Virus record (IMG/VR): IMGVR_UViG_3300037104_000592 | Span: 1 to 64,000 of that record | DNA: 64,000 bases | Strand: one strand, 5' to 3' | Source of the DNA: a virus | In this document: positions 3,086 to 61,710 of the stretch, one piece after another | How positions within the stretch are numbered: position 1 is the first letter of the stretch | How the letters are laid out: each line of letters opens with the position of its first letter | The notes under the pieces: generated by a model | The model's input: the letters and a program-made list of their open reading frames with translations, nothing else | Database searches by the model: none | What the model was told of the DNA's origin: nothing | Position numbers and translations under genes: made by a program

Positions 3086-3382
3086 ATGGGAATGATTGAT
3101 ATTCTAAAGTCTTATCTTGAATCTACTATTAAAATGATAGTTGATAATCCAGAAGAAGTTAAAGTTGAAATTAACACATCTACAAAAACGATTTTGGTTC
3201 AAATTAAAACATCTAAATCTGATTTTGGAAAAGTTATTGGAAGAAAAGGAAAAACAATTGAATCTTTAAAAACTATTTCTTGTGCAATAAAAAATACAAA
3301 GTTTCATGATGATGTCAGAAGTGTAGTTTTAGAGATTTTAGAGGATGAAGTATCAAGTTTTAAAACATTAAAAAAAGAATAA
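3086..3382 (+). CDS. KH-domain RNA-binding protein (KhpA/YlqC-like)
   Basis: A 98-residue protein consisting essentially of one KH domain. Residues 4-60 align by eye with bacterial KhpA: IDILKSYLES..MIVDNPEEVKV, then the GKVIGRKGKTIESLKTI segment containing the GxxG loop (GRKG) that contacts RNA bases. KhpA is normally about 76-80 residues; here there is a C-terminal extension of roughly 20 residues. Cellular KhpA pairs with KhpB/EloR to bind many RNAs. No KhpB homologue is visible in this window. RBS AAAGGAGAAATTG precedes the ATG. A phage copy suggests RNA chaperone or post-transcriptional control activity. Confidence 0.85.
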   Translation: MGMIDILKSYLESTIKMIVDNPEEVKVEINTSTKTILVQIKTSKSDFGKVIGRKGKTIESLKTISCAIKNTKFHDDVRSVVLEILEDEVSSFKTLKKE

Positions 3383-3405
3383 ATTAAATTAGGAGGAATA
3401 TAGTT

Positions 3406-17442: not shown

Positions 17443-20400
17443 TTAGATTTGAAGTTTTCAAGCAATATTCACAAGTTACAGATGGATTGCGATATACTAT
17501 AAAAGAGCAACCATATATGCTGCTGTATCTCTCTGAAAACTCTACATTAATAGATGACTTTCACAAATTAAATATAAGATTAATAGATATTAGAATGGCA
17601 GTTATTCCTAGAACTACAATTCCGAGAACATTCTTAACTCCAGAACTTAGAAAAATATATAATAAAATACTGGGGTTATATTCATATCCAGCAAATATGA
17701 AAATTCCAAAAAATAAAAATTTTATATTTGATCCTACTAATTTTATAAAGGAGGTTGATGAAACCTATCATCCTGATAACTATAGACAAAAAGCAGGATT
17801 TTTAATTAAAAATCAATTAGAAAGCGCCCTTTTAAATTATCCAGGATATAAAAAAGTTTTGATATATTCAATAGATGTTACTAAAACTTTTAATAATTTT
17901 GTTGATAGAAAAATATTTCCTATAATTCAAGACTTAAAAAATAATGATATTAACTTTGATGATTTATTACTTGTAACTTTAAATGAATCTTCAGTTCGAT
18001 ATAGATTATTAGTTAAGGATAGAAAATTTGATTTTCAAAAAATTATGGTATATATAAAAACAATTAAACATATTGATCTTGAAGAAGAAGTTGAAGATGA
18101 AACAAAAGAAGCATCTGAAAAAGTAGCAGCGATTCTTCCAGCTCATATAAAAAATAAAGAAAAAATAAAAGATGCAGTTAAACATTATCTAAAAAAAGAT
18201 TCTAACACATTAGATAAGGTTAATAATAATGAATTTAAACCAGAAGAGTTAAAAACAATTGCTATAAAATCAGTTTTCTTTAGATCAACTAATAATATGG
18301 TAAGAGCAAATAATATAGTTGACAAAGTTAAACCTGAAAAAATTGATACATTATTAAAAGTTGTTGATAAACATTATGCAGATGAATTAATTCCAAAAAA
18401 AGATGTTGTAGACACAACTGATGATTTAGTTGTAAAGTCATATAATGTTAAATCTGCTGTAGGTAATAAAGCTCCAGATCATTTATTTATAAAAAGACAA
18501 ATGGATTTTAAAACAAATCTAAAGCATGATATGACTAATTCATTTAAGACATTAGAAACTAAAGAGATTCCATTAAAAATTGAAAAAATGGAAATTACAG
18601 ATAAACCACTTAAAAAGAATGAAATAATGAAATCAGATTTAAGTTTAGTTAAGGTTTCATTAAAAGATGAATTTGGAAAAAAACATAATGTAACAATTGA
18701 AATTCCAAAAATTGATCCTAATTCAGGAACGTTTAGAGTAAATGGGAGGACCAAGTGCTTAGTTAATCAAATAGTATTATGTCCAATAACATTTTTAAAA
18801 CCATATGACTCAAAATTTGAAAGTTCATATTCTACGTTTCATATTAGAAGTAAACGAACAAAGAGAATGAATTATTTAGAAATTTATATGGGTTCTTTCA
18901 AAAATTTACCTTTATTAATATTGTTAACATATAGTTTTGGATTTGATGAAACAATGAAACAATATGATATAAAGTATGAAATAAAAACAGAAAAACCAAA
19001 AAAGACTGAAAAGTTTGCATGTAAAATAAATGCAACCGAATATATTTACTTTGAAAATATTAATACAGAACTAAAACAAGAATTGATTACATCATTTATA
19101 AATGAAGGTATAGATAAATATGATATAAAACATAAATTTGGAACTAAAGAATATTTAAATGATTTGATTATAAAAATCACTGGAAGAGTTAATTCTACAT
19201 TTCTTTTAAATGCAAACCTTGAAAATATTATTGACCCAGTTGCAAAACAAGTTTTAATAAATAAAGGACTTCCTCATGAGTTGAAATATATAATGCAATA
19301 TATGGCTACCAAAGTTGTATCAGGTTTTTCTGAAAGTAGAAATGATTTAACAAATCAAAGAATTAGAGGATCAGAAGTAATAGTTAATTTAGCTCAAAAA
19401 CAAATTTTATCTGCATATACTGTATATAAAGAACAGGTTTTAGCAGGTAATAAAAATGCAGAATTTTTAGTTAATCCAACAAAAGTTTTGAGTGCATTTT
19501 TAAATTCAGAAATTGTTGTTGATATGGAATATGCAAACCCAATTGAAGAAATGGCGGTTATGACTAGAATATCTCCAGTTGGAAAATCTATTGGTGGTAT
19601 TGCAAATGCAAATGCAATTCAATCAAGCGCTAGAAATGTAAGTCCATCTTATTTTGGGAATATTGATCCTCTTGATACACCAGAAGGACCAAATGTTGGA
19701 ATAACTCAACAATTAGCTTTAGGAGCAATGGTATCATCTTCAAGAGGATTATTTACTACTAAAAAAATATCAAATGAAGAAGGATCTGGAATTTTATCTA
19801 CTTCTACTTGTATGATTCCATTTATTGAAAATAATGATGGAAATAGAATTCAATTTGCAGCTAATCAATCGAGACAAATGTTACCATTAAAAAACCCTCA
19901 ACCTCCAGTTATAAGATCTGGGTATGAATCTGTTTTAACGAATGTCTTATCTGATAATTTTATTAAAAAAGTTCCTGAGAGATCTAAAGTTTTATCAGTA
20001 ACAAGTGACCATATAATATTAGTTGGAAAATCAGGAAAAAAATATGATATTAATTTAACTCCTATTCATTTAAGATCTGGAACTGGTCGAGATACTTTAA
20101 GTATTTTTAAAACTAAAGTTGTTAAAGGTCAAATTGTAAATGAAGGACAAATTTTAGCAGAAGGAAGTTGTATAAAAGATGGAGCAATTTCTTTAGGTAG
20201 AACTTTATGTGTTGGGTATATGCCCTATAAAGGATATAATTTTGAAGATGGAATTATTATAAATGAAAAATTAGCAACAAATGATATGTTAACATCTTTG
20301 CATGGGTTAGAAGAAGAAGTTTTAATTTCTGAAAAAGATAGAGTTTTATTTATAGCAAATATTGGAGATAGACTTAAAAAAGGAGAACCATTACTAAGAA

Positions 20401-21533
20401 AAACTATTGGAGAAATTGAGCAATTAATTGGATTTGAAGATATTGAAGATGATACAACATCAGTATATGGTCAGGATTTAATTAAGACGAGTCCAGGTGG
20501 TCTTATTGTTGATCTTGAAGTTTTTTGTAATGTTAGTGATGAAAAATTTCCAAAATTAAAATTTTATATTGATAGAACAAGAAAAAGATATGGTGTTTCT
20601 GCAGATCAAAAATTTGTAGTAAAGGGAGTATCTATAAAAGGAGCTCTTGTAAGATTTAAAATAGAACAAGAATTAAAAATTGAAACTGGAGATAAATTAA
20701 CTAATAGATTTGGAGCTAAAGGAATCATTACATTAATAGAAAAAGATGATTTAATGCCAAGAACTCCGTGGGGAGATAGATTAGATGTTATATTAAATCC
20801 TTTGGGAATTATTGGTAGAATGAATCTTGGACAATTATATGAGTTATATTGTGGATTAATTTCTAGAGCTTTAGTTATTAAATTACTTTCTTCTAAAAAT
20901 AAAAAGCAAGCGCTAGATGTAATGACAAATGTTTTATCAAAATTAGATACATCTAAAAATAAAGAATATACAAATAAAATGGTTGGATCTATTGCAAAAT
21001 TAAGCGATAGACAATTTTCATTATTAATTACTCAGATAAAAGATAGTGGTTTTATTCCTATTATAATTCCACCATTTAAAGCTCCCAAACCTAATCAAAT
21101 AATGGAAGCTTTAAAAATGTTAGATTTGAAACCAGGATACCATTTGTATCTTCCTGAGTTTGGAATTAAAACACACGATGCAGTTCCTGTTGGATATATG
21201 TATGTTTCAAAACTAGAACATATTGGAGAGATGAAAATACATGGTAGATCAACTGGACCTGTTGTTGGAAAAACATCACAACCAACACAAGGAAAAAGTA
21301 GAGAAGGTGGTCAGAGATTAGGAGAGTCAGATGTTCATGTTTTAATTGGATATAATTGCCCAAAACTATTATCAGAATTAATGGGACCATTGTCTGACGA
21401 TACTATTAGTAAAAATGAAATGATTTCTGATATAATTCAAACAGGAGAAACAACCTTCAGAGTTCCTAAAATTTCTCCTGCTAAAGATTTATTAAACGCA
21501 TATTTTATTTCGTTAATGTTGGAGAATAAATAG
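17439..21533 (+). CDS. RNA polymerase beta subunit, first set
   Basis: A full-length 1364-residue beta homologue. The C-terminal two thirds carry the RpoB blocks in order: NIDPLDTPEGPNVGITQQL (fork loop region), GYMPYKGYNFEDGIIINE, GDKLTNRFGAKGII, LNPLGIIGRMNLGQLYE and GRSTGPVVGKTSQPTQGKSR...GGQRLGESD. The lysines and arginines of the catalytic centre are present. The N-terminal 400 residues are divergent, with a charged linker around residues 205-330. It starts inside the homing endonuclease gene, which suggests the original beta' and beta genes were adjacent. Unsplit beta is unusual among jumbo-phage polymerases. Confidence 0.95.
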   Translation: MIRFEVFKQYSQVTDGLRYTIKEQPYMLLYLSENSTLIDDFHKLNIRLIDIRMAVIPRTTIPRTFLTPELRKIYNKILGLYSYPANMKIPKNKNFIFDPTNFIKEVDETYHPDNYRQKAGFLIKNQLESALLNYPGYKKVLIYSIDVTKTFNNFVDRKIFPIIQDLKNNDINFDDLLLVTLNESSVRYRLLVKDRKFDFQKIMVYIKTIKHIDLEEEVEDETKEASEKVAAILPAHIKNKEKIKDAVKHYLKKDSNTLDKVNNNEFKPEELKTIAIKSVFFRSTNNMVRANNIVDKVKPEKIDTLLKVVDKHYADELIPKKDVVDTTDDLVVKSYNVKSAVGNKAPDHLFIKRQMDFKTNLKHDMTNSFKTLETKEIPLKIEKMEITDKPLKKNEIMKSDLSLVKVSLKDEFGKKHNVTIEIPKIDPNSGTFRVNGRTKCLVNQIVLCPITFLKPYDSKFESSYSTFHIRSKRTKRMNYLEIYMGSFKNLPLLILLTYSFGFDETMKQYDIKYEIKTEKPKKTEKFACKINATEYIYFENINTELKQELITSFINEGIDKYDIKHKFGTKEYLNDLIIKITGRVNSTFLLNANLENIIDPVAKQVLINKGLPHELKYIMQYMATKVVSGFSESRNDLTNQRIRGSEVIVNLAQKQILSAYTVYKEQVLAGNKNAEFLVNPTKVLSAFLNSEIVVDMEYANPIEEMAVMTRISPVGKSIGGIANANAIQSSARNVSPSYFGNIDPLDTPEGPNVGITQQLALGAMVSSSRGLFTTKKISNEEGSGILSTSTCMIPFIENNDGNRIQFAANQSRQMLPLKNPQPPVIRSGYESVLTNVLSDNFIKKVPERSKVLSVTSDHIILVGKSGKKYDINLTPIHLRSGTGRDTLSIFKTKVVKGQIVNEGQILAEGSCIKDGAISLGRTLCVGYMPYKGYNFEDGIIINEKLATNDMLTSLHGLEEEVLISEKDRVLFIANIGDRLKKGEPLLRKTIGEIEQLIGFEDIEDDTTSVYGQDLIKTSPGGLIVDLEVFCNVSDEKFPKLKFYIDRTRKRYGVSADQKFVVKGVSIKGALVRFKIEQELKIETGDKLTNRFGAKGIITLIEKDDLMPRTPWGDRLDVILNPLGIIGRMNLGQLYELYCGLISRALVIKLLSSKNKKQALDVMTNVLSKLDTSKNKEYTNKMVGSIAKLSDRQFSLLITQIKDSGFIPIIIPPFKAPKPNQIMEALKMLDLKPGYHLYLPEFGIKTHDAVPVGYMYVSKLEHIGEMKIHGRSTGPVVGKTSQPTQGKSREGGQRLGESDVHVLIGYNCPKLLSELMGPLSDDTISKNEMISDIIQTGETTFRVPKISPAKDLLNAYFISLMLENK

Positions 21534-22338: not shown

Positions 22339-22573
22339 AAAAGGAAACATGGCTTTAGTGGATATGGATAGGTCAGATCTTATTGATGTGAATCCATCAC
22401 ATGATGGTGTTGTTTTTACGTTTAAAAATAATGCTTATCTTTATTTTACAGATCAGAATCTTCCAACGGCAGTAAAGGAAGTTATGAAGAATACTGCTAA
22501 CAATTTTCCACTCGCGACTTTAGATTTTGATGTTGGAAATTATAAGAAACCAGTTACAGCAGAGATTAAATAA
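22319..22573 (+). CDS. Conserved-looking small protein, 84 aa
   Basis: A compact beta-rich protein (VTIRKGNMALVDMD, VVFTFKNNAYLYFTDQNLP) preceded by GAAAGGAGAATAGAAA. The alternating hydrophobic pattern suggests a small beta-barrel or sandwich. It is the last gene before a regulatory gap containing promoter-like element B and a hairpin. No family recognised. Confidence 0.65.
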   Translation: MARVTIRKGNMALVDMDRSDLIDVNPSHDGVVFTFKNNAYLYFTDQNLPTAVKEVMKNTANNFPLATLDFDVGNYKKPVTAEIK

Positions 22574-22649: not shown

Positions 22650-22701
22650 TGAGCATCTATGAATCTTTAAAGTGGCTTCATAGATGCTCACTTATTTTTA
22701 A
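22650..22701 (+). terminator. Hairpin terminator or attenuator
   Basis: A perfect 14-bp inverted repeat (TGAGCATCTATGAA at 22650-22663 with its complement at 22677-22690) encloses a 13-nt loop and is followed by CTTATTTTTAA. This looks like an intrinsic terminator for the 17.4-22.6 kb transcript, although element B lies between that operon and the hairpin. The remaining 22702-22816 is AT-rich with a perfect AAAGGAGGT at 22763-22770, but no convincing gene uses it. Confidence 0.75.
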
Positions 22702-22966: not shown

Positions 22967-22998
22967 ATTATTTATTTTGCAATAATATTATCTATCGC

Positions 22999-23092
22999 AG
23001 CAACCTGTTTACTATTAGGTGCATTGATCGGATATATTCGATTAATTCGCTTAATAGTAAACAGGTTGCTGATTAATTATTTTTTGGTTTTT
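22999..23092 (+). terminator. Long two-part hairpin terminator
   Basis: A perfect 19-bp stem (AGCAACCTGTTTACTATTA at 22999-23017 with its complement at 23052-23070) encloses a 34-nt loop. The loop itself can form a second hairpin (TTGATCG with CGATTAA). T-rich DNA (TTATTTTTTGGTTTTTT) follows. It would terminate the short message upstream or form a stable RNA end. Confidence 0.8.
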
Positions 23093-48368: not shown

Positions 48369-50992
48369 TGGCCGAGCAAATATCACCTATATTTATTGAT
48401 GAAAATACAATTAAAGAAATATTTATAAATAGAGATTATACAAGACTCATAAGATCTTCTTATGATTCTAAAGCTAGAGATGTAAAATTGGATGAAACTA
48501 AACCAAAACTTGTAACATCTAAGATGAGAACAATAGATTTTTTTAATAAATTAAATAGTACAGATAGTAAACTAACAATTCTTCCTAGAAATTGTAGATT
48601 TACTAATAAAATAACTGATAGAACAATATACGTAATTGAAGATCCTCCTATGTTAAGAACAGTTAAATTTAATATAGGATTAGAATCTGAAATTGAAAAT
48701 TTAAGGAATAATGGTTTACTTACAAAGTTTGGATATGAAAATTTTCTAAATGATAATCCAAGTCCACCTTATAAAATACAACTTTCATTCCCGTATGTTA
48801 TTTATATTATAACTTTTGGGCAACATAATGAATTTTCAAATATGAAGTTATTTTATAGATTGCATCCTTTAACTGGAATAAAAGATTATTTACTCACAAG
48901 TAATTTATTGAATGTAGATTCTAACGGTTCTGTATGTTTAGGTCCACAAAATTCAAAAGATGTTACAGAAGTAAGTGATAAAGTAGATAATATTATAAAT
49001 TCTTTTTGGGGAAATGAGTTTAATAATGATATTACACATTCATATTTATCATATTCTAATCAAAGAGAAATTTCTACAATTCTAGCGTGGAAATATTATT
49101 CGAAAGTTGATCCAATGTTTATATTTGATGTGGAGTGGATAAAAAATACATATAATTTAGACTCATTTTTAAATTTTAAAAATTCTGGTGATGATATAAG
49201 AAGTTGTGAAAATATAATGTATAAACTTGAAGAGTATATTTTATATGATAAAGAAGATGAAGGACAAAAAGTTGTTGATAGAAGATATACTTATACCAGT
49301 CTTCCATTATTTGAAGATGAACAAAAGGGTTCTGACTATCTTGTAATTGGAGATGAAATTATATTTGAAGGGAAAAAATATTTTATATATGAAATAGTTC
49401 ATGAATCAGATGGAAAAATTATTGTTTCATTGGAAGACGAGAATGGAAAGTTAATTTATAAAAAATATAATACAGATTTTAGAGACAAAATAAGAAAAGA
49501 AACTTTGAAAAATAAAGAGCTTACAGAAATTAAAATTGATGGTCTTACTGTAAAAAAAGGAACCGTTTTAGAAGCATTTGATGGTTATAAAAAGAGATTA
49601 AAACATGTACAAAAAATAAGAAAGACCAGAGATGGAAAAATAGAAATACAATGTGAAAAAAGTTTCTACATGATTGAAGATGGGAGTTTAGCTGGAGTAA
49701 AAGTTTTTGATATTAATAATTTAACTATTTCTAATGGTTTAAAAATTGTTAATGGAAATAAGTACATGATTTTTAATAATATAACTAATCCTATATTTGA
49801 TATTCAAACTGGAATTTTTACAGATTTAAAAGTAACTAACGACACTGTCTACTATAATTTTAAATATGTCAGACCTGCTGATAAAAAAGAATCTACAATT
49901 AATTATAGTGGAGATACTCAAACAACTGAAGTTTTTGATTATGATGAAAAACTTTTAAATAATTCCATGTTTCCTTTCTTTAGACTTGGAAAAATGATCA
50001 TATCAAATATTGATAAAGATTATAAATTTCATATAATTAAAGGAAAAGGTATTGGGGTTACATCTTCTTCGGGTAATGTAATTGATAGATATGATTTTGG
50101 GAGATATTTAAATTCTGATAAAGATATAAAGGAGAAAATTTTAAAAGATAATAAATTAAGAATTCCATCATTTGATTTGGATATAGAATTTGATATTGGT
50201 GATAGAGTAGTTATAGCTGATTATTCTAAATCTTTAAAATATATTACTACAATAAGAACTATAACTGGATTTAAAATTGCAGGGGATAATCTTTTTGTAG
50301 ATACTGTAGATGAAAATAATATACCAGAAAGTACTCCTTATATAAATTTTAAAATTTATGATAAAAGTTATATTTATTCAAAATCTCCTAAAGTTAATAT
50401 TGGGTTAATTAGAAAAATAATAGATAATGATTTATTCAAAAGAGGAACTAAAGTAAGACCTAAGGTAAAAGGAATTTCATCATTTAAGAAAAAAGATGTT
50501 CATGAAATAGTTGGACTAATTACAGATACTGGGTCTAAACCTATTATTCTATGTTCAAATGGTCATACAATTTGGTGTGATGAAAAATCACTTGAAAATT
50601 TTGAACTTATAGATAAGAAATCTAAATTATATAATAAATCAAAATTAACAGAAATATTAGAAAATGAAAAAATATATTGTAAATTTCAATCTGGAGATTT
50701 AGCTGATATTAAAGATGTATATGATAGAACTTCATATGAAGATTCAATTCATCTTTGCGGTATAGGAGCAAATAATAGAATAATATTTAAAATTTTAAAT
50801 TCTTTAAATGTATATGGTTCATATAATAGATCTGGAAGAAGAATTATAAGTCAACAATATCAAACTATTCCTATGCCAAGATATTTACCAACAACTGAAT
50901 TAATAAGAGGGATTGGAGTTATTCCTAATTATCATGGTTGGTTTACTATTTCAAATAATTCGCTGTTTAAAATACAATTGGAGAAAATATAA
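48368..50992 (+). CDS. E2-like (PRTRC protein B-like) ubiquitin-conjugating fold with long barrel-rich extension
   Basis: An 874-residue protein. Residues about 85-230 resemble the E2-like PRTRC-B family: IYVIEDPPMLRTVKF, strands YVIYIITFGQ and KLFYRLHP (His166-Pro167), NLLNVDSNGSVCLGP with the candidate catalytic Cys190, and SFWGNEFNNDITHSYLSY, corresponding to the FF.S.FTH segment. Canonical E2s also have an HPN...G.xCL block. Beyond residue 300 are at least three SH3/Tudor-like stretches (DYLVIGDEIIFEGKKYFIYE, FDIGDRVVIADYS and FKRGTKVRPKVKG), not part of known PRTRC-B proteins, which probably bind the target or nucleic acid. First gene of a four-gene Ub-like cassette; TAATG coupling to the JAMM gene. 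Confidence 0.7.
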   Translation: MAEQISPIFIDENTIKEIFINRDYTRLIRSSYDSKARDVKLDETKPKLVTSKMRTIDFFNKLNSTDSKLTILPRNCRFTNKITDRTIYVIEDPPMLRTVKFNIGLESEIENLRNNGLLTKFGYENFLNDNPSPPYKIQLSFPYVIYIITFGQHNEFSNMKLFYRLHPLTGIKDYLLTSNLLNVDSNGSVCLGPQNSKDVTEVSDKVDNIINSFWGNEFNNDITHSYLSYSNQREISTILAWKYYSKVDPMFIFDVEWIKNTYNLDSFLNFKNSGDDIRSCENIMYKLEEYILYDKEDEGQKVVDRRYTYTSLPLFEDEQKGSDYLVIGDEIIFEGKKYFIYEIVHESDGKIIVSLEDENGKLIYKKYNTDFRDKIRKETLKNKELTEIKIDGLTVKKGTVLEAFDGYKKRLKHVQKIRKTRDGKIEIQCEKSFYMIEDGSLAGVKVFDINNLTISNGLKIVNGNKYMIFNNITNPIFDIQTGIFTDLKVTNDTVYYNFKYVRPADKKESTINYSGDTQTTEVFDYDEKLLNNSMFPFFRLGKMIISNIDKDYKFHIIKGKGIGVTSSSGNVIDRYDFGRYLNSDKDIKEKILKDNKLRIPSFDLDIEFDIGDRVVIADYSKSLKYITTIRTITGFKIAGDNLFVDTVDENNIPESTPYINFKIYDKSYIYSKSPKVNIGLIRKIIDNDLFKRGTKVRPKVKGISSFKKKDVHEIVGLITDTGSKPIILCSNGHTIWCDEKSLENFELIDKKSKLYNKSKLTEILENEKIYCKFQSGDLADIKDVYDRTSYEDSIHLCGIGANNRIIFKILNSLNVYGSYNRSGRRIISQQYQTIPMPRYLPTTELIRGIGVIPNYHGWFTISNNSLFKIQLEKI

Positions 50993-52020
50993 TGTTTAAA
51001 ATAGTTTGTTTAGATGGAACACAAAAAATACCAGAAGATGATATTTGTTATATTATAGCTAAGGGTGGGGTATATCTTAAGAAAAAAGTTGGAATGATTG
51101 AATCTTTAGCTCCAGTAAAGAATATTTCAATTTTAGAAGATGTTCAACCATATGCTAAAATGAATATTCCAAAAATCTCTGGTGAAGATTTTGGAAAAGT
51201 TATGAGTTTTTTCAAAAAAGTTTATGAAGAACATAAATCTGAAGCAATAGTTCTTTTATATTATAATCCAAAAAAAGCAACTTATAAATTTTATGTTCCA
51301 CATCAAAAAGTAAGTGGTGCTGGAGTTGATTATGTAAAAGGAGTTTCTATAGCAAATCATATTCAAGTAGGAACTATTCATAGTCATGCTAATTTTTCAG
51401 CATTTCATTCTGGAACAGATGATAGTGATGAAGAACATTTTGATGGAATTCATATAACAATTGGTGATAACACCGATGCTTTTCCATCTATCACTGCATC
51501 AATTGTTATAAATGGAACCAGATTTACAATAAATCCTATTGATTATGTAACAAAAATGGAAATTGTAGAATATACTAATTATTTTCCTCATATGTTCAGA
51601 CCATCTTTCACAGAAATAAATGGAGTCAGAGAATATAAATCTAATGTAAAAACTCAACTTGGATATCAGCTAATGATTTCAGACCAAGATAAAAAATTTA
51701 ATGAAGCATGGTTAAAAATGATTGAGAATGTTAGACCTACTATAACTAATATCCCATTTTATACACAAGAACACTATTTGGATTTATTTGATCCTAATAG
51801 AAAAGATAAGCAAGACAGATCTTATAGATACACATGGACTCCAGGTTCTACTAAAAAGAATAATCGTCCTGCTTATAATCCTTGTGAAAGTTGTGTTTTT
51901 AAAAAATATAAATCAGACGATGAAAGAAAATCAATAACACAAGAGGACATACAACAAAGTTTCTCTGATATTTGGGATGATTATAATGTGTATGATGATC
52001 CTTGGGGAAATTTAATATGA
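50992..52020 (+). CDS. JAMM/JAB metallopeptidase (deubiquitinase-like, PRTRC protein A-like)
   Basis: The JAMM motif is complete: Glu84 (SEAIVLLYY), then H130-x-H132-x7-S140-x2-D143 in GTIHSHANFSAFHSGTDDSD. The strand KFYVPHQKVSGAGVDYV before it resembles PRTRC-A/JAB proteins. This zinc peptidase family cleaves isopeptide or C-terminal extensions of ubiquitin-like proteins. A C-terminal region of about 140 residues contains CESCVFKKYK (about 300), a possible extra metal site. It lies between the E2-like and E1-like genes with 1-bp and 4-bp overlaps. Likely substrate: the beta-grasp protein at 52731, whose tail continues three residues beyond a GG. Confidence 0.88.
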   Translation: MFKIVCLDGTQKIPEDDICYIIAKGGVYLKKKVGMIESLAPVKNISILEDVQPYAKMNIPKISGEDFGKVMSFFKKVYEEHKSEAIVLLYYNPKKATYKFYVPHQKVSGAGVDYVKGVSIANHIQVGTIHSHANFSAFHSGTDDSDEEHFDGIHITIGDNTDAFPSITASIVINGTRFTINPIDYVTKMEIVEYTNYFPHMFRPSFTEINGVREYKSNVKTQLGYQLMISDQDKKFNEAWLKMIENVRPTITNIPFYTQEHYLDLFDPNRKDKQDRSYRYTWTPGSTKKNNRPAYNPCESCVFKKYKSDDERKSITQEDIQQSFSDIWDDYNVYDDPWGNLI

Positions 52021-52721
52021 GATTTAATGATATTTCTATAGTGGGTTTGGGTGGAATAGGCTCAATTTTAAGTAATACTATTTCAAGATTTATAAGTAAC
52101 GATGCTAGAGAAAATGATCCAAGACAAATTATAAATTTAATTGATGGAGATTATTATGAAGAAAAAAACTTAGTTAGACAAGAATTTTTAAGATTTGGAA
52201 ATAAAGCAGAATCTAAATTAAATGAATTAAGACCAAAATTTAATAATATTGAATTTAAAGATTATCCATATTTTATAGATGATATAACTATTTCTAGAAT
52301 AATTAAAGATAAAGATTTAGTATTTTTAGCAGTTGATAATCATAAAACAAGAAAATTAGTAAGTGATTATGCAAAAAAACTAAATGATATAATTATAATT
52401 TCAGGAGGAAATGAGCTAGAAGATGGTAATGTTCAATTGTATATTAGAAAAGATGGAGAAGATGTTACTCCATCTTTAACTGATTATCATCCAGAAATCA
52501 GAAACCCAATTGATAAATTACCAAATGAAATGAGCTGCGAAGAGTTACAAAACTCTGAACCACAACTATATTTTACAAATTTAGGAGTGGCAACTTTTAT
52601 GGCTTTTGCATTTTACAATGTCCTAAAAGGCTCAAATAATTTTTCAGAAGTATATTTTGATATGAACACAATGAAAGCTGATTCAAAAACAAGAAACTTA
52701 AAAAAAGAAAAAGGAGAGTAA
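52017..52721 (+). CDS. ThiF/E1-like adenylyltransferase, first module
   Basis: I chose ATG 52017, which overlaps the JAMM stop (ATGA). The 234-residue protein has the E1 Rossmann loop GLGGIG (residues 10-15), IDGDYYEEKNLVRQ (the D...E..NL.RQ block with the arginine and glutamine that contact ATP) and LAVDNHKTR (103-112). Cys174 in NEMSCEELQ is at the position of the ThiF/MoeB catalytic cysteine region. No rhodanese domain and no CxxC zinc pairs are present. It should adenylate the C-terminal glycine of the Ubl encoded next and may pass it to the E2-like protein. It resembles the ThiF of PRTRC cassettes. Confidence 0.88.
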   Translation: MRFNDISIVGLGGIGSILSNTISRFISNDARENDPRQIINLIDGDYYEEKNLVRQEFLRFGNKAESKLNELRPKFNNIEFKDYPYFIDDITISRIIKDKDLVFLAVDNHKTRKLVSDYAKKLNDIIIISGGNELEDGNVQLYIRKDGEDVTPSLTDYHPEIRNPIDKLPNEMSCEELQNSEPQLYFTNLGVATFMAFAFYNVLKGSNNFSEVYFDMNTMKADSKTRNLKKEKGE

Positions 52722-52730
52722 GGATTTATT

Positions 52731-53204
52731 ATGGCTAAAAAAGTATATTCGGCAGAGGAACTTTATAACAAAACAGTATCAGAACTTCGTGAAATGTGTG
52801 TTAAGTTTGGGATTACGGGTATGAGTAAAAGGAGAAAAGATGAGATTGTAGATGCTCTTTGTGATTATTATGAAGATACAGCACCTGAACCCCAAGTTAA
52901 AACACCAGTTTCTTCTTCATCTATCGTTTCTATGAATGCTCAACTTTCGAGTTATAGAAACCCCGATTCAAAAAATGATGACGATAAATACATCACCAAT
53001 ATTTTTGTGTCTTGCGGCGCAGCTTCTGGAAACTTCCCAGTTGTTGGAAAGAAAGTTGGAGCAGTTGCTGAATTCCTAAGAGAAGTTCTTAATATCGACC
53101 GTTTAAGTGTTGGAGTTGTGAATGGTGAAGAAGTTGAAGATAGTTATCTTCTTGCATCTGGAGATTCTCTTGAATTTCTAAAAGCAGGTGGTCGTAAAGG
53201 TTAA
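52731..53204 (+). CDS. SAP domain fused to ubiquitin-like/ThiS beta-grasp domain
   Basis: Residues about 11-47 (LYNKTVSELREMCVKFGITG, then KRRKDEIVDALCDYY) form a SAP-type nucleic-acid-binding helix pair. A Ser/Pro/Asp-rich linker (50-85) leads to a ThiS/MoaD-like beta-grasp domain (about 88-157): NIFVSCGAASG, a helix AVAEFLREVLN, and VNGEEVEDSYLLASGDSLEFLKAGG, the classic ending of sulfur-carrier/Ubl proteins, followed by RKG. If the JAMM peptidase removes RKG, a GG terminus would be exposed; alternatively the final Gly is itself activated, since PRTRC-C proteins also end in G-x-K-G. Codon use here is less AT-biased than that of neighbours, suggesting high expression. Confidence 0.8.
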   Translation: MAKKVYSAEELYNKTVSELREMCVKFGITGMSKRRKDEIVDALCDYYEDTAPEPQVKTPVSSSSIVSMNAQLSSYRNPDSKNDDDKYITNIFVSCGAASGNFPVVGKKVGAVAEFLREVLNIDRLSVGVVNGEEVEDSYLLASGDSLEFLKAGGRKG

Positions 53205-53249
53205 TTTGTATTATTAAAAATATTATATTATAAAGAATCGGAGTTACTT

Positions 53250-53768
53250 ATGAAAGAAACACTAGATAAGCTTACAGATGAAGGTGTAAAGCAACTAAAA
53301 TATTATTATAAGAAAACAAGGCTCTTTGGAAATATTTGCACTGTTTGTTTACTTATTGGAGAAAATAATGAACTTATTTCAAGAGGAGTTTCTATTTGTT
53401 CATTATTAGATTCTCATAAAAAATCAACAGGAAAAAATATTGCTTTAGGAAGAGCAATAAAAGCTCTAAAAAATAAGAAAACAACAGATGAAATAAATCC
53501 AAATAGAGATTCTTTAACACATTGGATGTATACTAAAAATATAAATAAAAAAGATCCTTATTTTAGCGATATGTTTGAAGAAATTAAATATAATTGCTTT
53601 TCTACAAAACCTTTAAAAATTAATAAAGAAGAAGTTTTAAAAGTTGAAATACCAATGGATTTTCCATTGTATGCAACTGTATCATTATTTACACATAAAT
53701 CTTCATTTAAACCAACTCCTACGGATGAAGAAGTTAAAATAATTGAAAAAAGAAAAAAGTTAGATTAA
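53250..53768 (+). CDS. Unknown protein with RGVSICS...ALGRAIKAL motif, 172 aa
   Basis: Preceded by AATCGGAGTTACTT. The segment ICTVCLLIGENNELISRGVS, then a lysine-rich G..IALGRAIKALKN, is a pattern I associate with hypothetical proteins of large phages, in which an RGxSxCSxxD...K..G...A..RA..AL block recurs. No catalytic role is known to me. Located between the Ubl gene and the structured RNA. Confidence 0.62.
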   Translation: MKETLDKLTDEGVKQLKYYYKKTRLFGNICTVCLLIGENNELISRGVSICSLLDSHKKSTGKNIALGRAIKALKNKKTTDEINPNRDSLTHWMYTKNINKKDPYFSDMFEEIKYNCFSTKPLKINKEEVLKVEIPMDFPLYATVSLFTHKSSFKPTPTDEEVKIIEKRKKLD

Positions 53769-53783
53769 ATTTTTAGAAAAATT

Positions 53784-53940
53784 GGGGTGGATAATCATAC
53801 TGAATAAGTGGTTTTGAAACCTGGTACTAAGAAAGAGTGCGAACTCTGGGGCAGGAACCCAGATAGAAGCTTTAGATGGCTCGATAGCTGACTGATAGAT
53901 ATTGCACCCAAAGTGCCTTATCCAGTATTATTCCACCCCA
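53784..53940 (+). ncRNA. Predicted structured RNA, about 157 nt
   Basis: The ends of this gene-free interval pair to close a long stem: GGGGTGGA (53784-53791) with TCCACCCC (53932-53939), TAAT with ATTA, and ACTG with CAGT, with bulged CAT and T. Inside are clear hairpins: GGTT-TTGA-AACC (53810-53822), AGAGT-GCGA-ACTCT with a GNRA loop (53834-53847), CTGGG...CCCAG (53846-53862, sharing one base with the previous stem), AGC...GCT around 53868-53889 and GCAC-CCAAA-GTGC (53904-53916). No T-loop GTTCRANNC, so it is not a tRNA. The closed multi-branch form recalls Y-RNA-like or packaging RNAs, but I cannot assign a family. The strand is inferred from neighbouring genes. Confidence 0.7.
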
Positions 53941-53957
53941 ATTTTAGGAGATTAAAA

Positions 53958-54200
53958 ATGGGTAGTTATAATCAAGATAAAGATGTTTTAATAAAAATGT
54001 TTGAAATGATTACAGATGAAAAGGGTTCTTCTCTAATGTTGTCTATTTTTTCATACGACAATGGACCGAAAAAATTAGCAATGACAAGATCATATAATAA
54101 AAAAGATGGATCTGTTGGATATTCTTCAGCAGGTAGATTAAGTCTTATGGAAGTTAATTTTCTAAAAGATAAATTAGATGAAATAATTAAAGAGATGTAA
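53958..54200 (+). CDS. Unknown small protein, 80 aa
   Basis: The ATG at 53958 follows TTTAGGAGATTAAAA; an in-frame GTG at 53913 lies inside the structured RNA and is less likely. Beta-rich, with the segment GPKKLAMTRSYNKKDGSVGYSSAGRLSLMEVNFLKDKLDEI typical of small conserved phage proteins that end in a helix after GRLS; the function is unknown. It lies between the RNA and the second E1-like gene. Confidence 0.62.
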   Translation: MGSYNQDKDVLIKMFEMITDEKGSSLMLSIFSYDNGPKKLAMTRSYNKKDGSVGYSSAGRLSLMEVNFLKDKLDEIIKEM

Positions 54201-54256
54201 CCCTCCCGATAACTATTTTTGATTTAAAGAACAAATAAAAGTCGTGGAGGAATAGA

Positions 54257-55132
54257 GTGTATAAAGATATAGCGATTATAGGTTTAGGAAGTATAGGAGG
54301 TTTTTTATCGAGCAATATCATAAACATAGACACAATAAAATCTTTGGTTTTAGTTGATTATGATAGAGTAGAACTGGAAAATTTGAAAAATTCAATTTAT
54401 AAAAAATCAGATGTTGGGAAATTTAAAGTTGAATGTGTATCTTCCGTTATAAAATTGTTCAATAGTGAAATAAATATTACAGCAATAAAAGATAGATATA
54501 TAGAGGGAAAAACAAAAATTCCAAAATGCGATTTAGTTATTGATTGTAGAGATTTTGTTTATGATAGAGGTTCAGAAATAAATATGAGATTATATATCTC
54601 TTCTAGACATTTAATAATTGATTGTAGAAAAGATATAAAATATCAATTACACTATGAAGGAAAATATATAGATACATTAACAAAATCTGATATTTATTCT
54701 GCTACAGCTAATTTGTCAAGATTGATATTTAATGAAGAATTAAATGATATAATTAAAAACAATTTAGTTCATACAATAGATATGGATGAATGCTTAAAAT
54801 CAAGTGAAGAAACTTTAAATAACTATAATAATAAAATGGAAGTTGTTATGGATTATCATAAAAAGAATGATTGTTTCATAAATTTTCTTGAAAATGCAGA
54901 AAATATAATAAATTTCAATAAAAAAAGTGAAGTGAAAATTTGTCTAAACGATAAAAGATTTCCATTATCTACTAAAATAATACCAAAAAATTATATTCAA
55001 AATGTAAATGACTTAAGTAAAAATTTTTTATCAATAATACCAGCTAAAAATCATAGTAGTTATATAGTTAAATCAATTATAGAAAAAAATATTTGTTATG
55101 TAATTTTAATACCAGAAACAGGGGCTGCTTAA
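54257..55132 (+). CDS. ThiF/E1-like protein, second module, divergent
   Basis: GTG start after GTGGAGGAATA. The 291-residue protein begins IAIIGLGSIGGFLSSN (Rossmann glycine loop), then VLVDYDRVELENLKNSIY, the E1-family D...D.xE..NL block but with N-S where ThiF and E1 enzymes have R-Q, so nucleotide contacts may differ. VIDCRDFVYDR replaces the aVDn...R motif. The C-terminal 130 residues differ from ThiF and end in a short beta-rich region. It is followed immediately by a minimal E2-like gene. It is either a divergent activating enzyme for an unidentified Ubl or a scaffold that has lost adenylation. Confidence 0.75.
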   Translation: MYKDIAIIGLGSIGGFLSSNIINIDTIKSLVLVDYDRVELENLKNSIYKKSDVGKFKVECVSSVIKLFNSEINITAIKDRYIEGKTKIPKCDLVIDCRDFVYDRGSEINMRLYISSRHLIIDCRKDIKYQLHYEGKYIDTLTKSDIYSATANLSRLIFNEELNDIIKNNLVHTIDMDECLKSSEETLNNYNNKMEVVMDYHKKNDCFINFLENAENIINFNKKSEVKICLNDKRFPLSTKIIPKNYIQNVNDLSKNFLSIIPAKNHSSYIVKSIIEKNICYVILIPETGAA

Positions 55133-55134
55133 AA

Positions 55135-55476
55135 ATGAGCATAAAAACTATTACTATTGAGAAAAAAATAACACCAAGAATTGCTATTTATAAACGAGAT
55201 GCCTTTGATATTTTAGAGGTTGATCCAGAATTCATGATAAATAAATATGAGATAACTTTAAAAGAATCAAAAGTAGTTTCTTTAAAATTATTTGCTTTAC
55301 ATCCAAATTGTAATCCAGATACTGGAGAATTTTGTTTAGGTCCTGACATAATTGAAAATCAAGCAAATGAATATCTTTTAGAAAAAGTTATTCCTTATAC
55401 ACTATCAGTATATAATTTAGATAGTTGTTATTTCAGGCCAAAAAATGGAAAAGTAAAATATGGAATAATGAAATGA
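55135..55476 (+). CDS. Minimal E2-like protein, 113 aa
   Basis: The ATG at 55135 is 2 bp after the E1-like stop. Residues about 40-75 read ITLKESKVVSLKLFALHPNC, then NPDTGEFCLGPDI. This HPN...G.xCLG block is the hallmark of the E2/UBC active site, with a cysteine 11 residues after the histidine (10 in typical eukaryotic E2s). Flanking strands and a C-terminal helix (IIENQANEYLLEKVIPYTLSVY) fit a trimmed UBC fold. At 113 residues it is shorter than canonical E2s (about 150). It resembles the N-terminal block of the protein at 48368, so it is probably a second conjugating or adaptor subunit paired with 54257. Confidence 0.68.
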   Translation: MSIKTITIEKKITPRIAIYKRDAFDILEVDPEFMINKYEITLKESKVVSLKLFALHPNCNPDTGEFCLGPDIIENQANEYLLEKVIPYTLSVYNLDSCYFRPKNGKVKYGIMK

Positions 55477-55926: not shown

Positions 55927-58623
55927 ATGCCAAATATATTAAACATAGATAAGTTTTGTGAAAACTTAAAAGGAATTTCTTCTTTAAAAGCTATTGATAA
56001 AAGAAAATTCCATCCAAATGGATTATTCTCAGAGCAGATATTTGGTCCTTTAAAAAATTATACATGTCAATGTGGAATATATCATGGAGTATCCAATGCA
56101 GGTGGAACTTGCGAAATATGTGGAGTTGATATTGTTCATAGTATTGAGAGAAGAAGAAGATTTGGAAAAATTGTTCTACCTTTGAAAGTTGTTAATCCAA
56201 TTTTTTATGATTTGGTTATAAAATTGGGTGGAAATATATTAAAAAAGAATATAGATGAGTTAATGAAAAATGAAAAAAGTTATTTATATAAAGATGAAAA
56301 TGATTATATTGTAGAAACTAAGTTACCCCATCCTACTAATACTCAAATATGGGATAGATCTGAAGCAATTTTTGAATTAGTAAATGGACTTGCTACAGAG
56401 TTGGGAAATAATGAAAGTGGAATGGGAATTAAAGAATGGGAATTAATAAAAAATAATATTGATTGTTTATTTATTAAAAATGTTATAGTGTTACCACCTG
56501 ATTTAAGACCTGCTGCAAAAGGAATGGATAAGAACGATCAACGAATGGATAAGATAAATAGATTTTATGTTCAAATTCTTACAAAAAAAGAAAGTATGAG
56601 AAATACTCCTATAAATATAGAAACTGATAAAAGCGTATATTACAATTTTTTCAAGCAATTACAGAGAGATGTTAATGAATTATATGAACATATTATTTCA
56701 AAAATATCCAAGAAAGAAGGTTTAATAAGAGGAAATATTTTAGGGAAGAGAATAGATTTCTCAGGTAGAGCTGTTATTGTTCCAGAACCTTCTTTGAAAT
56801 TAGATGAATGTAGTCTTCCATATTTAATGGTTTTAGAATTATTTAAAATTCAATTATCTAAAAAACTTATAGATTTAAAACAGTTTAAATTATTAAATGA
56901 AGCAATTGATTTTGTTGATAGGTGTATAGAATTATCAGATCCTATTTTATTTAATATTTGTCAAGACATAGTTAAAAATGAAGTTTGTTTACTTAATAGA
57001 CAACCAACTTTACATAGATTAGGAATGATTGGATTTAAGATAAAAACTTCTTTAGATAAAGTTATAAAGATACACCCCCTAGTTTGTCCAGGATTTAATT
57101 CGGATTTTGATGGAGATCAAATGGCAGTATATATTCCGATTTCTGATAGGACAAAAGCAGAAGTTAGAGAAAAATTTATGTCAACTAAAAATTTATCTAA
57201 TCCTTCAAATGGAAGTTTAATTACTATTCCAAGTCAGGATATGGTTTTAGGAATTTATATGTTGACTACATCATCATTTGGAGAAGTTGAATATAAAGGT
57301 GAAAAAATAACAATTGGATCCAAAATATTCAATGAATGTTTACCAAGTGATTATCCATTAATAAATGGTTCAATAAATAATAAGATCTTAAAAGAAACAT
57401 TAAATGATATTAAAAATAAATATCCAGATGAAATAGTAACTGAAGTATTAGATAAAATAAAAGAAGTTGGTTTTAGATTTTCAACAATATATGGAACCTC
57501 AATGTCTTTGAAGCATATTTCAATTGATGGAATTGATAAAATTAAAAATGATATTTATTCATTGGATAATATTCAAGATCAATTATCTGCAATCTCTAGT
57601 AAAAAAACTGAAGATATAATGAGGAAAAACTTTAAATATTCTTATCTTATAGATTCAGGTGCAAGAGGAAAATGGGATCAGGTAAGACAAATAATTTTAA
57701 CAAGAGGATATATTTCTAATTTTCAAGGAGATATTCTCCCAACCCCAATAAAGCATAATTTAATAGAAGGTTTAGATCAACAAGAGTTTTTTAATTCAAC
57801 ATACGGTTGTAGAAAAGGATTATTAGATGTTGCATTAAATACAGGTGATTCTGGATATTTATCTAGAAAATTAATTTTCACTTGTGTTAACTTAATAATT
57901 GGGGAAGAAGATGATTGTGGAACAACAGATTATCTTGATATATTAGTTACTAGTGAAAAGAAAGCAAAAATGTTAATTGGAAGATATTATTTAAATGATG
58001 GAAATTTATCTGAAATAACAGTTGAAAATCATAAAGGATTTGTTGGAAAATTAATTCAACTTAGAAGTCCTATTTTCTGTAAAAATGAAGAACTATGTCA
58101 TAAATGTTATGGAAACTTATATAAAAATTTACATAGTAAGTTTGTAGGAATTATAGCTGCTCAAGCATGTGGAGAAGCTGGAGTTCAGCTAATTTTGAGA
58201 ACATTCCATACAAGTGGTGTAGCAAAGATTTCGGAAGATCAAACAGATATGAGACAGTCAGATATCGTAAGTGATTTATCTTCTGTATCAAAAGTTCTTC
58301 ATAATAAAGATAAAAAGGAATATAAAGAATTAGTTTCTAATTTATTTGACTTATATATTATAAATAGAGATATTCACCATATTCATTTTGAATGTATAAT
58401 TTCTCAAATGATGTGGAAAGGTTTTAGAAAATGGAGACTTCTACCAAATAGAGATAAAATTTCTTCAGACTATTATTCAATTCAAACAGTTCCTGAAAAA
58501 GAAAGTTGGATTGTAGGATTAGCTTTCTCAAATCCAAAAAACCATATTTTAAAAGGAATTGTTCAAGATGGAAATTATAAAGGAATTTTTGATAAAATAA
58601 TGCTAGGAGAAATACCTAGATAA
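55927..58623 (+). CDS. RNA polymerase beta' subunit, second set
   Basis: An 898-residue single-chain beta'. Unlike the first beta' it keeps an N-terminal zinc site, CQCG (47-50) and CEICG (62-66). The catalytic loop is NSDFDGDQM at 391-399: all three aspartates are present, but Ala of NADFDGDQM is Ser. ILGKRIDFSGRAVIVPEP and LNRQPTLHRLGM precede it, as in RpoC. The C-terminus has CKNEELCHKCYGNLY and GIIAAQACGEAGVQLILRTFHTSG, corresponding to the trigger-loop side. About 65% of bacterial beta' length. It differs enough from the first set that they are ancient paralogues or separate acquisitions. Confidence 0.95.
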   Translation: MPNILNIDKFCENLKGISSLKAIDKRKFHPNGLFSEQIFGPLKNYTCQCGIYHGVSNAGGTCEICGVDIVHSIERRRRFGKIVLPLKVVNPIFYDLVIKLGGNILKKNIDELMKNEKSYLYKDENDYIVETKLPHPTNTQIWDRSEAIFELVNGLATELGNNESGMGIKEWELIKNNIDCLFIKNVIVLPPDLRPAAKGMDKNDQRMDKINRFYVQILTKKESMRNTPINIETDKSVYYNFFKQLQRDVNELYEHIISKISKKEGLIRGNILGKRIDFSGRAVIVPEPSLKLDECSLPYLMVLELFKIQLSKKLIDLKQFKLLNEAIDFVDRCIELSDPILFNICQDIVKNEVCLLNRQPTLHRLGMIGFKIKTSLDKVIKIHPLVCPGFNSDFDGDQMAVYIPISDRTKAEVREKFMSTKNLSNPSNGSLITIPSQDMVLGIYMLTTSSFGEVEYKGEKITIGSKIFNECLPSDYPLINGSINNKILKETLNDIKNKYPDEIVTEVLDKIKEVGFRFSTIYGTSMSLKHISIDGIDKIKNDIYSLDNIQDQLSAISSKKTEDIMRKNFKYSYLIDSGARGKWDQVRQIILTRGYISNFQGDILPTPIKHNLIEGLDQQEFFNSTYGCRKGLLDVALNTGDSGYLSRKLIFTCVNLIIGEEDDCGTTDYLDILVTSEKKAKMLIGRYYLNDGNLSEITVENHKGFVGKLIQLRSPIFCKNEELCHKCYGNLYKNLHSKFVGIIAAQACGEAGVQLILRTFHTSGVAKISEDQTDMRQSDIVSDLSSVSKVLHNKDKKEYKELVSNLFDLYIINRDIHHIHFECIISQMMWKGFRKWRLLPNRDKISSDYYSIQTVPEKESWIVGLAFSNPKNHILKGIVQDGNYKGIFDKIMLGEIPR

Positions 58624-58653
58624 AAAATTTTAACACCTCAGGAGGTGAAATTA

Positions 58654-61600
58654 GTGGATATAATAAATCCAAACTATAAAATAAATGAAGAAAACAATAT
58701 ATTTTCAATAAGAGAAAAAGAATATAACTTAATAAAAGATAATGTAAGAGAAATTTTAAAAGCAGCAGAAGAAGTTGGTTTTTTAGTTAATGAACTTGGA
58801 ATAACGGAATCTAAATTCTCATCTGGAGAATTACAGAAAACATTAAAGAAAAATTTAGTTATAAAATTAAGACGAGGATCTTCTGACATAGACTTATCTA
58901 TGGCTATTCCAAAATTAATTGATAAAAATTATGTTATAATTGGAGGAAGGAAAAAAGTTCCTTTATTTCAATTATTTGATATTCCTGTAGTTACAAGAGG
59001 AAAAACTATAAAAATCAGAACCAATGTAGCAAGTATGATGATAGTAGATGAAAAAGAATTTCCATTTATTCATCTATCAATTTTTAATAAAAAAGTTCCA
59101 TTGTCCTTAGTCATATTTGCTTACTATGGTTTAGAAGAAACAAAAAATAAATTTAGTTTAGATAAAATAGAAATTCCTGAAATAAAAACTTTACATGATA
59201 AATTAATGACAGATTTAAAAGATTTTTATGAAGGATCAGAAGGGTTTACAAAAGAAGAATTTATCAAAGAAGTTGGTAAATTCTTCTCAACAAATGATGC
59301 AAAAAATAAAGGTGAAGATTTAATTTATGCTCTAGATCTTATTTTAAAGACCGATATAATGTCAGCTAAATTTTTCAAAACTGGAAACATTTTAGATGAA
59401 ATTGTTGAGGTTATTAAATTAGGTGGTTATGATGATACTGATTTAAGAAATAAAAGAGTAAGGTGTTTTGAATATGTAATTTTAGCTAAAGTATCTAAAG
59501 CAATATTTGATCTATGTATGTCAAATAGATCAACCACAAGACAAGCTAAATTTAATGTAAATTCCAGTCAAATTTTATCAGATTGTAATGTTTCAGATAT
59601 TGTTCAATTTGATTTTTCAATAAATCCAATTGAACAATTAACAAAATTAACAAGAACAAGTTTGGTTGGTCCTGGTGGGTTTGACAGAGAAAATGTTCCA
59701 GAATATCTAAGAGATATTAATCCATCAATGTTTGGAAGAATTTGTCCTGTTGATACTCCTGATAGAGATAACTGTGGAATATTACAAAGTTTATTACCAA
59801 ATACACCATTAGATGAAAATTTAAAATTTACAGATGAATCATTAGAAAAATCACCTATTTCTATTCCAGTTTCTTTAGTTCCATTTTTAGAACATGATGA
59901 TCAAACTAGATTACAAATGGCATCATCACAAATGAGACAGTCTATTATGTTATCAGAGTTTGAAGTTCCTATGGTTCAATCGGGATGTGAAGGGTTATAT
60001 ACAGATCATAGTAGCTTTATAAAAAAGGCTAGAAAAAATGGAAAAGTATCTTATGTAGATCAGTTTAATATAATTATTGTTTATGATGATAATGATTATG
60101 ATATTTTTGATGTATCAAATAGAAGAATATATGTTGAAAATATGGATGTTATGAACATATATGTTTCTAAAGGAGATAAAGTTAAAAAAGGAACGATTAT
60201 TGCTGAAAGTAATTATTGTAAAGATGGAAAAATAAATTTTGGAAGAAATTTATTAACAGCTGTTATGCCATATTATGGATATAATTATGAGGATGCAATT
60301 GTTATTTCTGATAGATTAGTAAAAGAAAATATTTTTACATCTATTCATTATATTGATTTATCATTTGTATTACCAGCAGATAAAATTTTACTTAGTTTAG
60401 AAAAAGATAAATATAAACCCCTTCCAACTCCAAAACCATATATAGATTTGGAAGAAGGAATTACAGAAGAAGAAAAAAGAAAAAGAAAAAGAGAATTAGT
60501 TTTAAAGGGTCAACATTATGCTATAATTAAACAAATTCCATCTACTACTTTGGATTACAATTCTATTTTCGAGGAAGAGATACCTTTAACTGCTAAAAGA
60601 GATATTTTAGTAACTGAAGTAAATATTTATCCTAATAAATGGAATGACTCAATTCCAAAATTTAATGAATGGATAGATAAAAAATCTAAAGAACAAATAG
60701 ATCAAGAGAATAAATTTAAGAGAATTATTTATGAAAATCTACCAAAAAGAAATGCTGATCAATATATAAGAGATCATAATCTAGATAGATTTTCTCATAT
60801 TGGAAAGTTTAAAATTAAAGGTGAAGAAATAAAAGGAACTTTAATTGAGATGTTTGGTTTTTATGTTAGACCAATTACTATTGGAGATAAGATTGGAAAC
60901 AGACATGGAAATAAAGGTGTAATTTCAAAAATAGTTCCACATAATCTTATGCCTAAATTAGAAGATGGAAGAAATGTTGATATATGTATAAATCCTTTAG
61001 GTGTTCCTTCGAGAATGAATGTTGGTCAAATATTTGAGTTACATTCTGCAATGTCTTTATATGATTTAAAAAAGACTATGTTAAAAATGATAAAAGAAGG
61101 AAAATCCAAAGACGAATTGAAAACATATATTTTAAATTATATTAAAATCATTGATAATACAGAAAATAATTGGTATTATAAACAGTTTGAAAAAAATATA
61201 AAAACTATAAATAAAAAGTTTATAGAAGATCTTACTATTCTTGCTCCACCATTTGAATCATCAACTAGAAAAATGATATTAGATGCTTGTGAATATACAA
61301 ATACCAAAACTGAATTTAAAGTATACGAACCATATGAAAAAATTGATATTCATGATATAGCTTGTGGGTTTATATATTTCTTTAGAATGGTTCACATAGC
61401 TGAAAATAGATTAGCAGCTAGAGGGATTGGTTCATATGGAAGAAGAACAATGCAACCAGGTGGTGGTCGTAAACACAAAGGAGGACAACGTTGTGGAGAG
61501 ATGGAAATCGCAGCAATCATTGCTCATGGTGGACTTGAAAATCTATATGAAACTTTAACAACCAAGTCAGATTGTATAGATCTTAAAAATAAACATATTA

Positions 61601-61710
61601 AGCAAGAAATAGGATCAGATTTCTTTAGAGAAAAAGAAGGAGATATTATAAAACCTGAAGCAGTTCAGCTTTTAGAGAATTATCTAACTGTTTTGGGTAT
61701 AGAAAAATAA
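58654..61710 (+). CDS. RNA polymerase beta subunit, second set
   Basis: I use GTG 58654, 7 bp after GGAGGT; the in-frame GTG at 58645 overlaps that site. The 1018-residue beta chain shows CPVDTPDRDNCGILQSL (fork region, with the usual TPEGPN replaced by TPDRDN), AVMPYYGYNYEDAIVISDR, GDKIGNRHGNKGVIS, INPLGVPSRMNVGQIFELH and RRTMQPGGGRKHKGGQRCGEME. All catalytic basic residues appear present. It is 25% shorter than the first beta, mainly at the N-terminus. Together with 55927 it forms the second polymerase; one of the two may be packaged in the virion, as in phiKZ-like phages, but which one cannot be told from sequence. Confidence 0.95.
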   Translation: MDIINPNYKINEENNIFSIREKEYNLIKDNVREILKAAEEVGFLVNELGITESKFSSGELQKTLKKNLVIKLRRGSSDIDLSMAIPKLIDKNYVIIGGRKKVPLFQLFDIPVVTRGKTIKIRTNVASMMIVDEKEFPFIHLSIFNKKVPLSLVIFAYYGLEETKNKFSLDKIEIPEIKTLHDKLMTDLKDFYEGSEGFTKEEFIKEVGKFFSTNDAKNKGEDLIYALDLILKTDIMSAKFFKTGNILDEIVEVIKLGGYDDTDLRNKRVRCFEYVILAKVSKAIFDLCMSNRSTTRQAKFNVNSSQILSDCNVSDIVQFDFSINPIEQLTKLTRTSLVGPGGFDRENVPEYLRDINPSMFGRICPVDTPDRDNCGILQSLLPNTPLDENLKFTDESLEKSPISIPVSLVPFLEHDDQTRLQMASSQMRQSIMLSEFEVPMVQSGCEGLYTDHSSFIKKARKNGKVSYVDQFNIIIVYDDNDYDIFDVSNRRIYVENMDVMNIYVSKGDKVKKGTIIAESNYCKDGKINFGRNLLTAVMPYYGYNYEDAIVISDRLVKENIFTSIHYIDLSFVLPADKILLSLEKDKYKPLPTPKPYIDLEEGITEEEKRKRKRELVLKGQHYAIIKQIPSTTLDYNSIFEEEIPLTAKRDILVTEVNIYPNKWNDSIPKFNEWIDKKSKEQIDQENKFKRIIYENLPKRNADQYIRDHNLDRFSHIGKFKIKGEEIKGTLIEMFGFYVRPITIGDKIGNRHGNKGVISKIVPHNLMPKLEDGRNVDICINPLGVPSRMNVGQIFELHSAMSLYDLKKTMLKMIKEGKSKDELKTYILNYIKIIDNTENNWYYKQFEKNIKTINKKFIEDLTILAPPFESSTRKMILDACEYTNTKTEFKVYEPYEKIDIHDIACGFIYFFRMVHIAENRLAARGIGSYGRRTMQPGGGRKHKGGQRCGEMEIAAIIAHGGLENLYETLTTKSDCIDLKNKHIKQEIGSDFFREKEGDIIKPEAVQLLENYLTVLGIEK

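Follow-up and report, generated by a model that had tools for sequence, protein, structure and literature searches.

A phage copy with an enlarged loop of an intercistronic hairpin that related phages have at the same site of a ubiquitin-like gene cluster

Between two ubiquitin-like gene modules of a phage there is a gene-free interval that can be folded into a closed, branched RNA, and the question raised by this locus is what kind of RNA it is and how much of it is shared with related phages. The interval belongs to a window of 64,000 nucleotides (the whole stretch of DNA analysed, part of an 82-kb record) and measures 189 bp, as stated in the original prediction; it extends from the stop of a gene encoding a 172-aa protein (53768) to the ATG of a gene encoding an 80-aa protein (53958). 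That prediction, made from the letters of the window, placed a structured RNA at 53784-53940 and considered Y-RNA-like or packaging-RNA-like roles for it.

The gene content supports the location of the structured RNA between two ubiquitin-like modules. The upstream gene set encodes an 874-aa protein with an E2-like motif, a JAB-like protease, a ThiF/E1 protein, a ubiquitin-like protein (UBL) and the 172-aa protein; the downstream set encodes the 80-aa protein, a second ThiF/E1, an E2-like protein, two short ORFs and the RNA polymerase (RNAP) subunits beta' and beta. All the genes located here are on the plus strand. The gene for the JAB-like protease of the first module (50992-52020) matches Prok-JAB at 4e-4, below the curated cut-off, and is followed by the first E1-like gene (52002-52721; ThiF, 5.9e-18) and the UBL gene (52731-53204), whose product shows a Rho_N-type domain (Pfam Rho_N, 6.7e-7) and, from a model and an alignment, a beta-grasp domain ending in GRKG. 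The beta-grasp assignment is weak, with a medium-confidence model and weak matches to TGS and ubiquitin-type domains; the protein would be a modifier joined to a possible nucleic-acid-binding part, the Rho_N-type domain. The gene for the 172-aa protein, p53250 (53250-53768), lies directly upstream of the interval and no family was found for it, and p53958 (53958-54200), encoding the 80-aa protein directly downstream, is an ORF with its ATG inside a listed GTG frame. The second E1-like gene (54257-55132; ThiF, 3.3e-17) precedes an E2-like gene (55093-55476), which has the motif HPNxNPxTGxFCLGP and no Pfam match; both E2 assignments, made from motifs only, are putative. One related locus, L249, contains two UBL copies fused in one frame (2426-3439) with an internal GRKG/ADETATS junction, which suggests, by analogy with polyubiquitin, a poly-UBL precursor that could be cleaved by the neighbouring JAB-like protease. 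In addition to the beta'/beta pair at 55927-61710, the window shows a second RNA polymerase beta-like ORF at 17439-21533 (1364 aa, read by eye), so that one phage possibly has two multisubunit polymerases.

The element is longer than first proposed and extends from 53778 to 53945 on the plus strand. Its predicted RNA is closed and multi-branched, as had been claimed, with -58.1 kcal/mol and a z-score of -4.83 against dinucleotide shuffles; the minus strand folds at least as well (z -6.19), as an inverted repeat would give. The terminal stem, predicted as a bulged 16-bp helix, exists with a different make-up: 14 perfect pairs are formed between a G-rich 5' arm, AAAATTGGGGTGGA (53778-53791, plus strand), and a 3' arm, TCCACCCCAATTTT (53932-53945, plus strand), with a mean pair probability of 0.965 (inverted repeat I1), and a second, imperfect pair of 16-nt arms (53793-53808 and 53917-53932, plus strand; inverted repeat I3), 88% complementary, continues inward. 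Fold stability resides chiefly in these outer and inner arms. A closing inverted repeat as long and as G+C-rich was obtained in one of 100 Markov simulations of 64 kb, and a chance origin is not expected. The Shine-Dalgarno sequence AGGAG of the next gene (53946-53950, plus strand) abuts the stem directly, at 0 nt. A similarity between 53777-53797 and the start of p53958 was set aside, 71% over 21 nt being too weak to be meaningful.

Inside the outer stem, an insert of 140 nt (53792-53931, plus strand) replaces the short loop of the related phages; it contains no ORF, and its G+C content of 41.4%, versus 26.4% in the window, places it among the top 0.6% of 140-nt stretches and agrees with the G+C enrichment reported before. 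Its core (53809-53916, plus strand) is predicted to form small hairpins with the stems GGUU/AACC (probability 0.91), CUGGG/CCCAG (0.98) and GCAC/GUGC (0.93). The proposed hairpin with a GNRA tetraloop, AGAGU-GCGA-ACUCU, is not formed (pairing probability 0.012) because it competes with CUGGG/CCCAG. Compared with shuffled sequences, the core shows z-scores of -0.35 on the plus strand and -1.78 on the minus strand. No tRNA was found with ARAGORN, in line with the original prediction, and the search of Rfam that it called for gave no match at gathering score to any of 4227 covariance models, among them Y RNA/YrlA, packaging RNA, GOLLD, ROOL and OLE.

To place the element among its relatives, the RNAP beta' protein was used to retrieve 80 viral loci, and in most of them the genes from JAB to polymerase follow one another in the same order. 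The loci having both the UBL and the second E1 genes number 64, window included, and all 64 show a closing stem in the interval between these two genes (61 simple hairpins, one medium and two long, the latter in the window and in L157), a count in which the best hairpin of the scan may sometimes not be strictly orthologous, the interval containing extra genes, and in which some loci are near-duplicates of one another. The hairpin scan of this interval is passed by 60 of the 64 loci; those below it are the window, L157, L156, with a 15-bp perfect hairpin of fewer G+C pairs, and L160, with an 11-bp stem around 35 nt. Strong hairpins occur at 2.40 per kb in the UBL-E1 interval versus 0.089 per kb elsewhere in the same loci (27-fold). 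At a control junction, after the stop of the RNAP beta gene, a hairpin was found in 8 of 81 cases, and the hairpin seen there in the window, L120 and L121 was rejected as a general feature. In L120 and L121, the closest relatives, a gap of some 55 nt at this place is occupied by a perfect hairpin whose 15-16 pairs differ in sequence from the window stem. The hairpin is often just upstream of the next ribosome-binding site. A distant relative, L196, shows a long-loop inverted repeat at 22425-22538 (15-bp arms, 84-nt loop), apparently outside genes; long inverted repeats of L169 were discarded as comparable elements, since they are apparently in coding sequence (read by eye). A search of genome contigs with a UBL profile found one further locus, L264 (DAOVGR010000079.1, 4440-4700), which is related to the UBL locus and has a comparable hairpin behind its UBL gene; the contig, filed as a Thermoplasmatales archaeon MAG, represents either phage DNA that was misbinned or a virus of archaea.

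In L121, L156 and L139 the hairpin immediately precedes the start of p53958 and can be aligned with the outer stem of the window in every column. The alignment of these four phages contains 12 pairs, all of them standard and five with changes on both sides; when L157 is added, 59 of 60 cells are paired (98.3%) and eight of the 12 pairs show double changes. The covariation score is 0.725 versus 0.205 in shuffles, with none of 500 shuffles reaching it, and slid controls give 0.175 or less; kinship inflates the shuffle tests and is retained in the slid controls. The 12 columns were registered by hand, with the arms aligned as fixed blocks, MAFFT having put the 3' arm one column off. The stem is conserved as structure, not as sequence, and by this alignment the window outer stem is homologous to the hairpin stem of the relatives, compensatory mutation being shown only where stems are alignable. 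The covariation expected by the original prediction is thus present for the closing stem only, the inner part having given no homologue in the loci, records and collections searched. A self-standing multi-hairpin RNA of the Y-RNA or packaging-RNA type is not supported, with no Rfam match, no homologue of the inner part and a core that folds like shuffled sequence. What is conserved is a plain hairpin between cistrons, and the window copy is an enlarged example of it: a real, conserved operon hairpin with an unusually large loop and a well-supported stem. What was a curiosity of a single genome becomes a comparative feature, as every locus examined has the hairpin at one and the same junction of its ubiquitin-like conjugation operon.

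The distinct simple hairpins share a strand polarity. The 5' arm is G-rich in 42 of 43 (218 G versus 36 C; binomial p 1e-11) and a U-tract follows in five, in a set that includes the window's own chance hairpin inside p53250 and an L127 row that is probably not orthologous, so that the counts are off by one or two cases. Because of these two results, the hairpin is probably an RNA-level operon-boundary hairpin and not an intrinsic terminator. The fixed polarity, G-rich 5' and C-rich 3', argues for a function in the transcript, although a strand-specific role in DNA would also be compatible with it, the genes of the cluster being co-directional. The neighbouring genes are closely packed on the plus strand, with the stem between p53250 and p53958, and presumably share a transcript. 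Intercistronic hairpins without U-tracts are known to protect upstream cistrons or to end stabilised upstream segments, as in malE-malF and puf (Dar and Sorek, 2018; PMC5927463). By analogy with these, protection of the upstream UBL message is the most likely role of the hairpin, and we give about even credence to the whole proposal, namely that an mRNA hairpin between cistrons marks, within one phage operon, where the UBL module ends and the E1/E2 module begins, and protects the UBL message. The polycistronic message would be cleaved in its downstream part and the stem would then stop 3'-to-5' exonucleases, so that the UBL message would outlast the distal part and supply a product presumed to be needed in excess over the E1/E2 enzymes; this larger need for UBL is an assumption of the protection reading. 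In the window phage, where the loop is swapped for the G+C-rich insert, the boundary function should be intact because the stem still closes. If the amount of UBL modifier relative to the E1/E2 enzymes is set by the hairpin, the dosing of such phage conjugation systems could be approached through it.

The same border could instead hold a partial transcription terminator, at which the host or phage RNA polymerase would sometimes stop and leave less message for the second module. A stable G-rich hairpin at a module border is compatible with this, T-runs follow the stem in a few relatives (L136 and L159, and a T-rich tail also in L135), and RNAP subunits, possibly with terminator requirements of their own, are encoded by the phage. 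Termination is nevertheless unlikely, as 38 of the 43 hairpins have no U-tract, a scan of 53200-54300 finds no terminator-like site, and the same genome has T-tailed hairpins at 22650-22690 and 22998-23071 and so seems to use the ordinary type elsewhere. These two hairpins lie in one sparsely coding region; that at 22998-23071 is long and near-perfect (fold z -10.9) and is followed by a T-rich stretch, and that at 22650-22690 has 14 bp and a T-tract. Their appearance is that of strong terminators or of an origin-type palindrome.

The adjacency of the Shine-Dalgarno site counts against the protection reading, as it is also compatible with translational control of the downstream gene, in which the stem would set the access of ribosomes or uncouple the gene from upstream translation, and the 80-aa product would possibly bind its own leader. 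The stem is also close upstream of the site in the other phages encoding p53958. The model of the p53958 protein shows a bbbba fold (pLDDT 89), and its best structural match is human PURA (Z 5.3, rmsd 2.2 over 66 residues); this weak resemblance, at the fold level only, to the single-stranded-nucleic-acid-binding PUR repeats suggests a possible small nucleic-acid-binding protein. A PC4-like identity was not clearly confirmed, with PUR repeats ranking first and YdbC-type proteins lower in Foldseek, none of them significant. Translational control is unlikely: loci that lack p53958, with E1 coming next, have the hairpin too, which is thus not specific to p53958, and the Shine-Dalgarno site and start codon are outside the stem.

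The enlarged loop raises a separate possibility, that the insert is a functional non-coding RNA of about 110-170 nt, which an RNase III-like cut of the outer stem would release and which would act alone. Inserts longer than 100 nt are found only in the window and in L157, where 126 nt occupy the same loop on a 13-bp stem; that two of 64 phages have inserts above 120 nt in exactly this loop, that both inserts are G+C-rich for their own genomes, and that both fall within the 12 loci carrying p53958, a weak association (Fisher p 0.033), are in favour of it. The two inserts, however, show no likeness by sequence or model search, a direct alignment not being meaningful, so their kinship is not demonstrable, and neither core folds significantly better than shuffles, whereas each whole element does. 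Homologues of the window insert were absent from the 80 related loci, 20 whole phage records and the phage and plasmid collections searched, which may omit near relatives. With blastn, the region gave only matches of 31-60 bp to phages (E 6e-4 to 0.3). In the 80 loci, a single-sequence covariance model of the element (R1) recovered the element on both strands and, besides it, only two weak matches (E 1.9 and 3.5); in the 20 whole records it recovered nothing. A model of the L157 insert (R2) recovered that insert on both strands, and its remaining matches were weak and lay outside the window. The 14-mer arm word has very many matches in viral contigs, as chance predicts at such a length. A released, functional RNA is therefore quite unlikely, and it is quite doubtful that the stem would be a docking frame in which different phages hold unrelated structured RNAs of 120-140 nt, processed out as small RNAs and perhaps acting with the PUR-like protein. 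The insert is best read as tolerated cargo or an expansion because its core folds like shuffled sequence and it has no relatives; the loops of the two phages indicate that the operon hairpin can host 120-140 nt of extra RNA with the stem kept.

A small MITE-like mobile element with terminal inverted repeats is very unlikely. In its favour, a short non-coding stretch lies between inverted arms of about 31 bp, which find each other in the genome; but neither the 82-kb record (possibly a fragment) nor any of the collections searched yielded a second copy, the outer arms belong by homology to the resident hairpin and not to the insert, and no target duplication is recognisable.

The operon-boundary hairpin shares with the protective stem-loops of E. 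coli malE-malF and Rhodobacter puf (Dar and Sorek, 2018; PMC5927463) a stable intercistronic structure without U-tract, conserved as structure, after a gene whose product is presumably needed in excess. Unlike them, it occurs in phages, at a ubiquitin-like gene cluster, and is not a repeated REP sequence, its effect on decay is only predicted, and its loop is replaced by an insert of 126-140 nt in two phages. Intrinsic (Rho-independent) terminators are likewise G+C-rich hairpins at an operon sub-border, but here, as in 38 of the 43 relatives, there is no U-tract and a Shine-Dalgarno site follows directly. The large structured RNAs of bacteria and phages, GOLLD, ROOL and OLE (PMC12286853), are also non-coding and structured; the element is much shorter than these, with no Rfam match and no conserved core. 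With Y RNAs and phi29-type packaging RNA the element has in common a long closing stem around a branched interior, but it matches no Rfam family on either strand.
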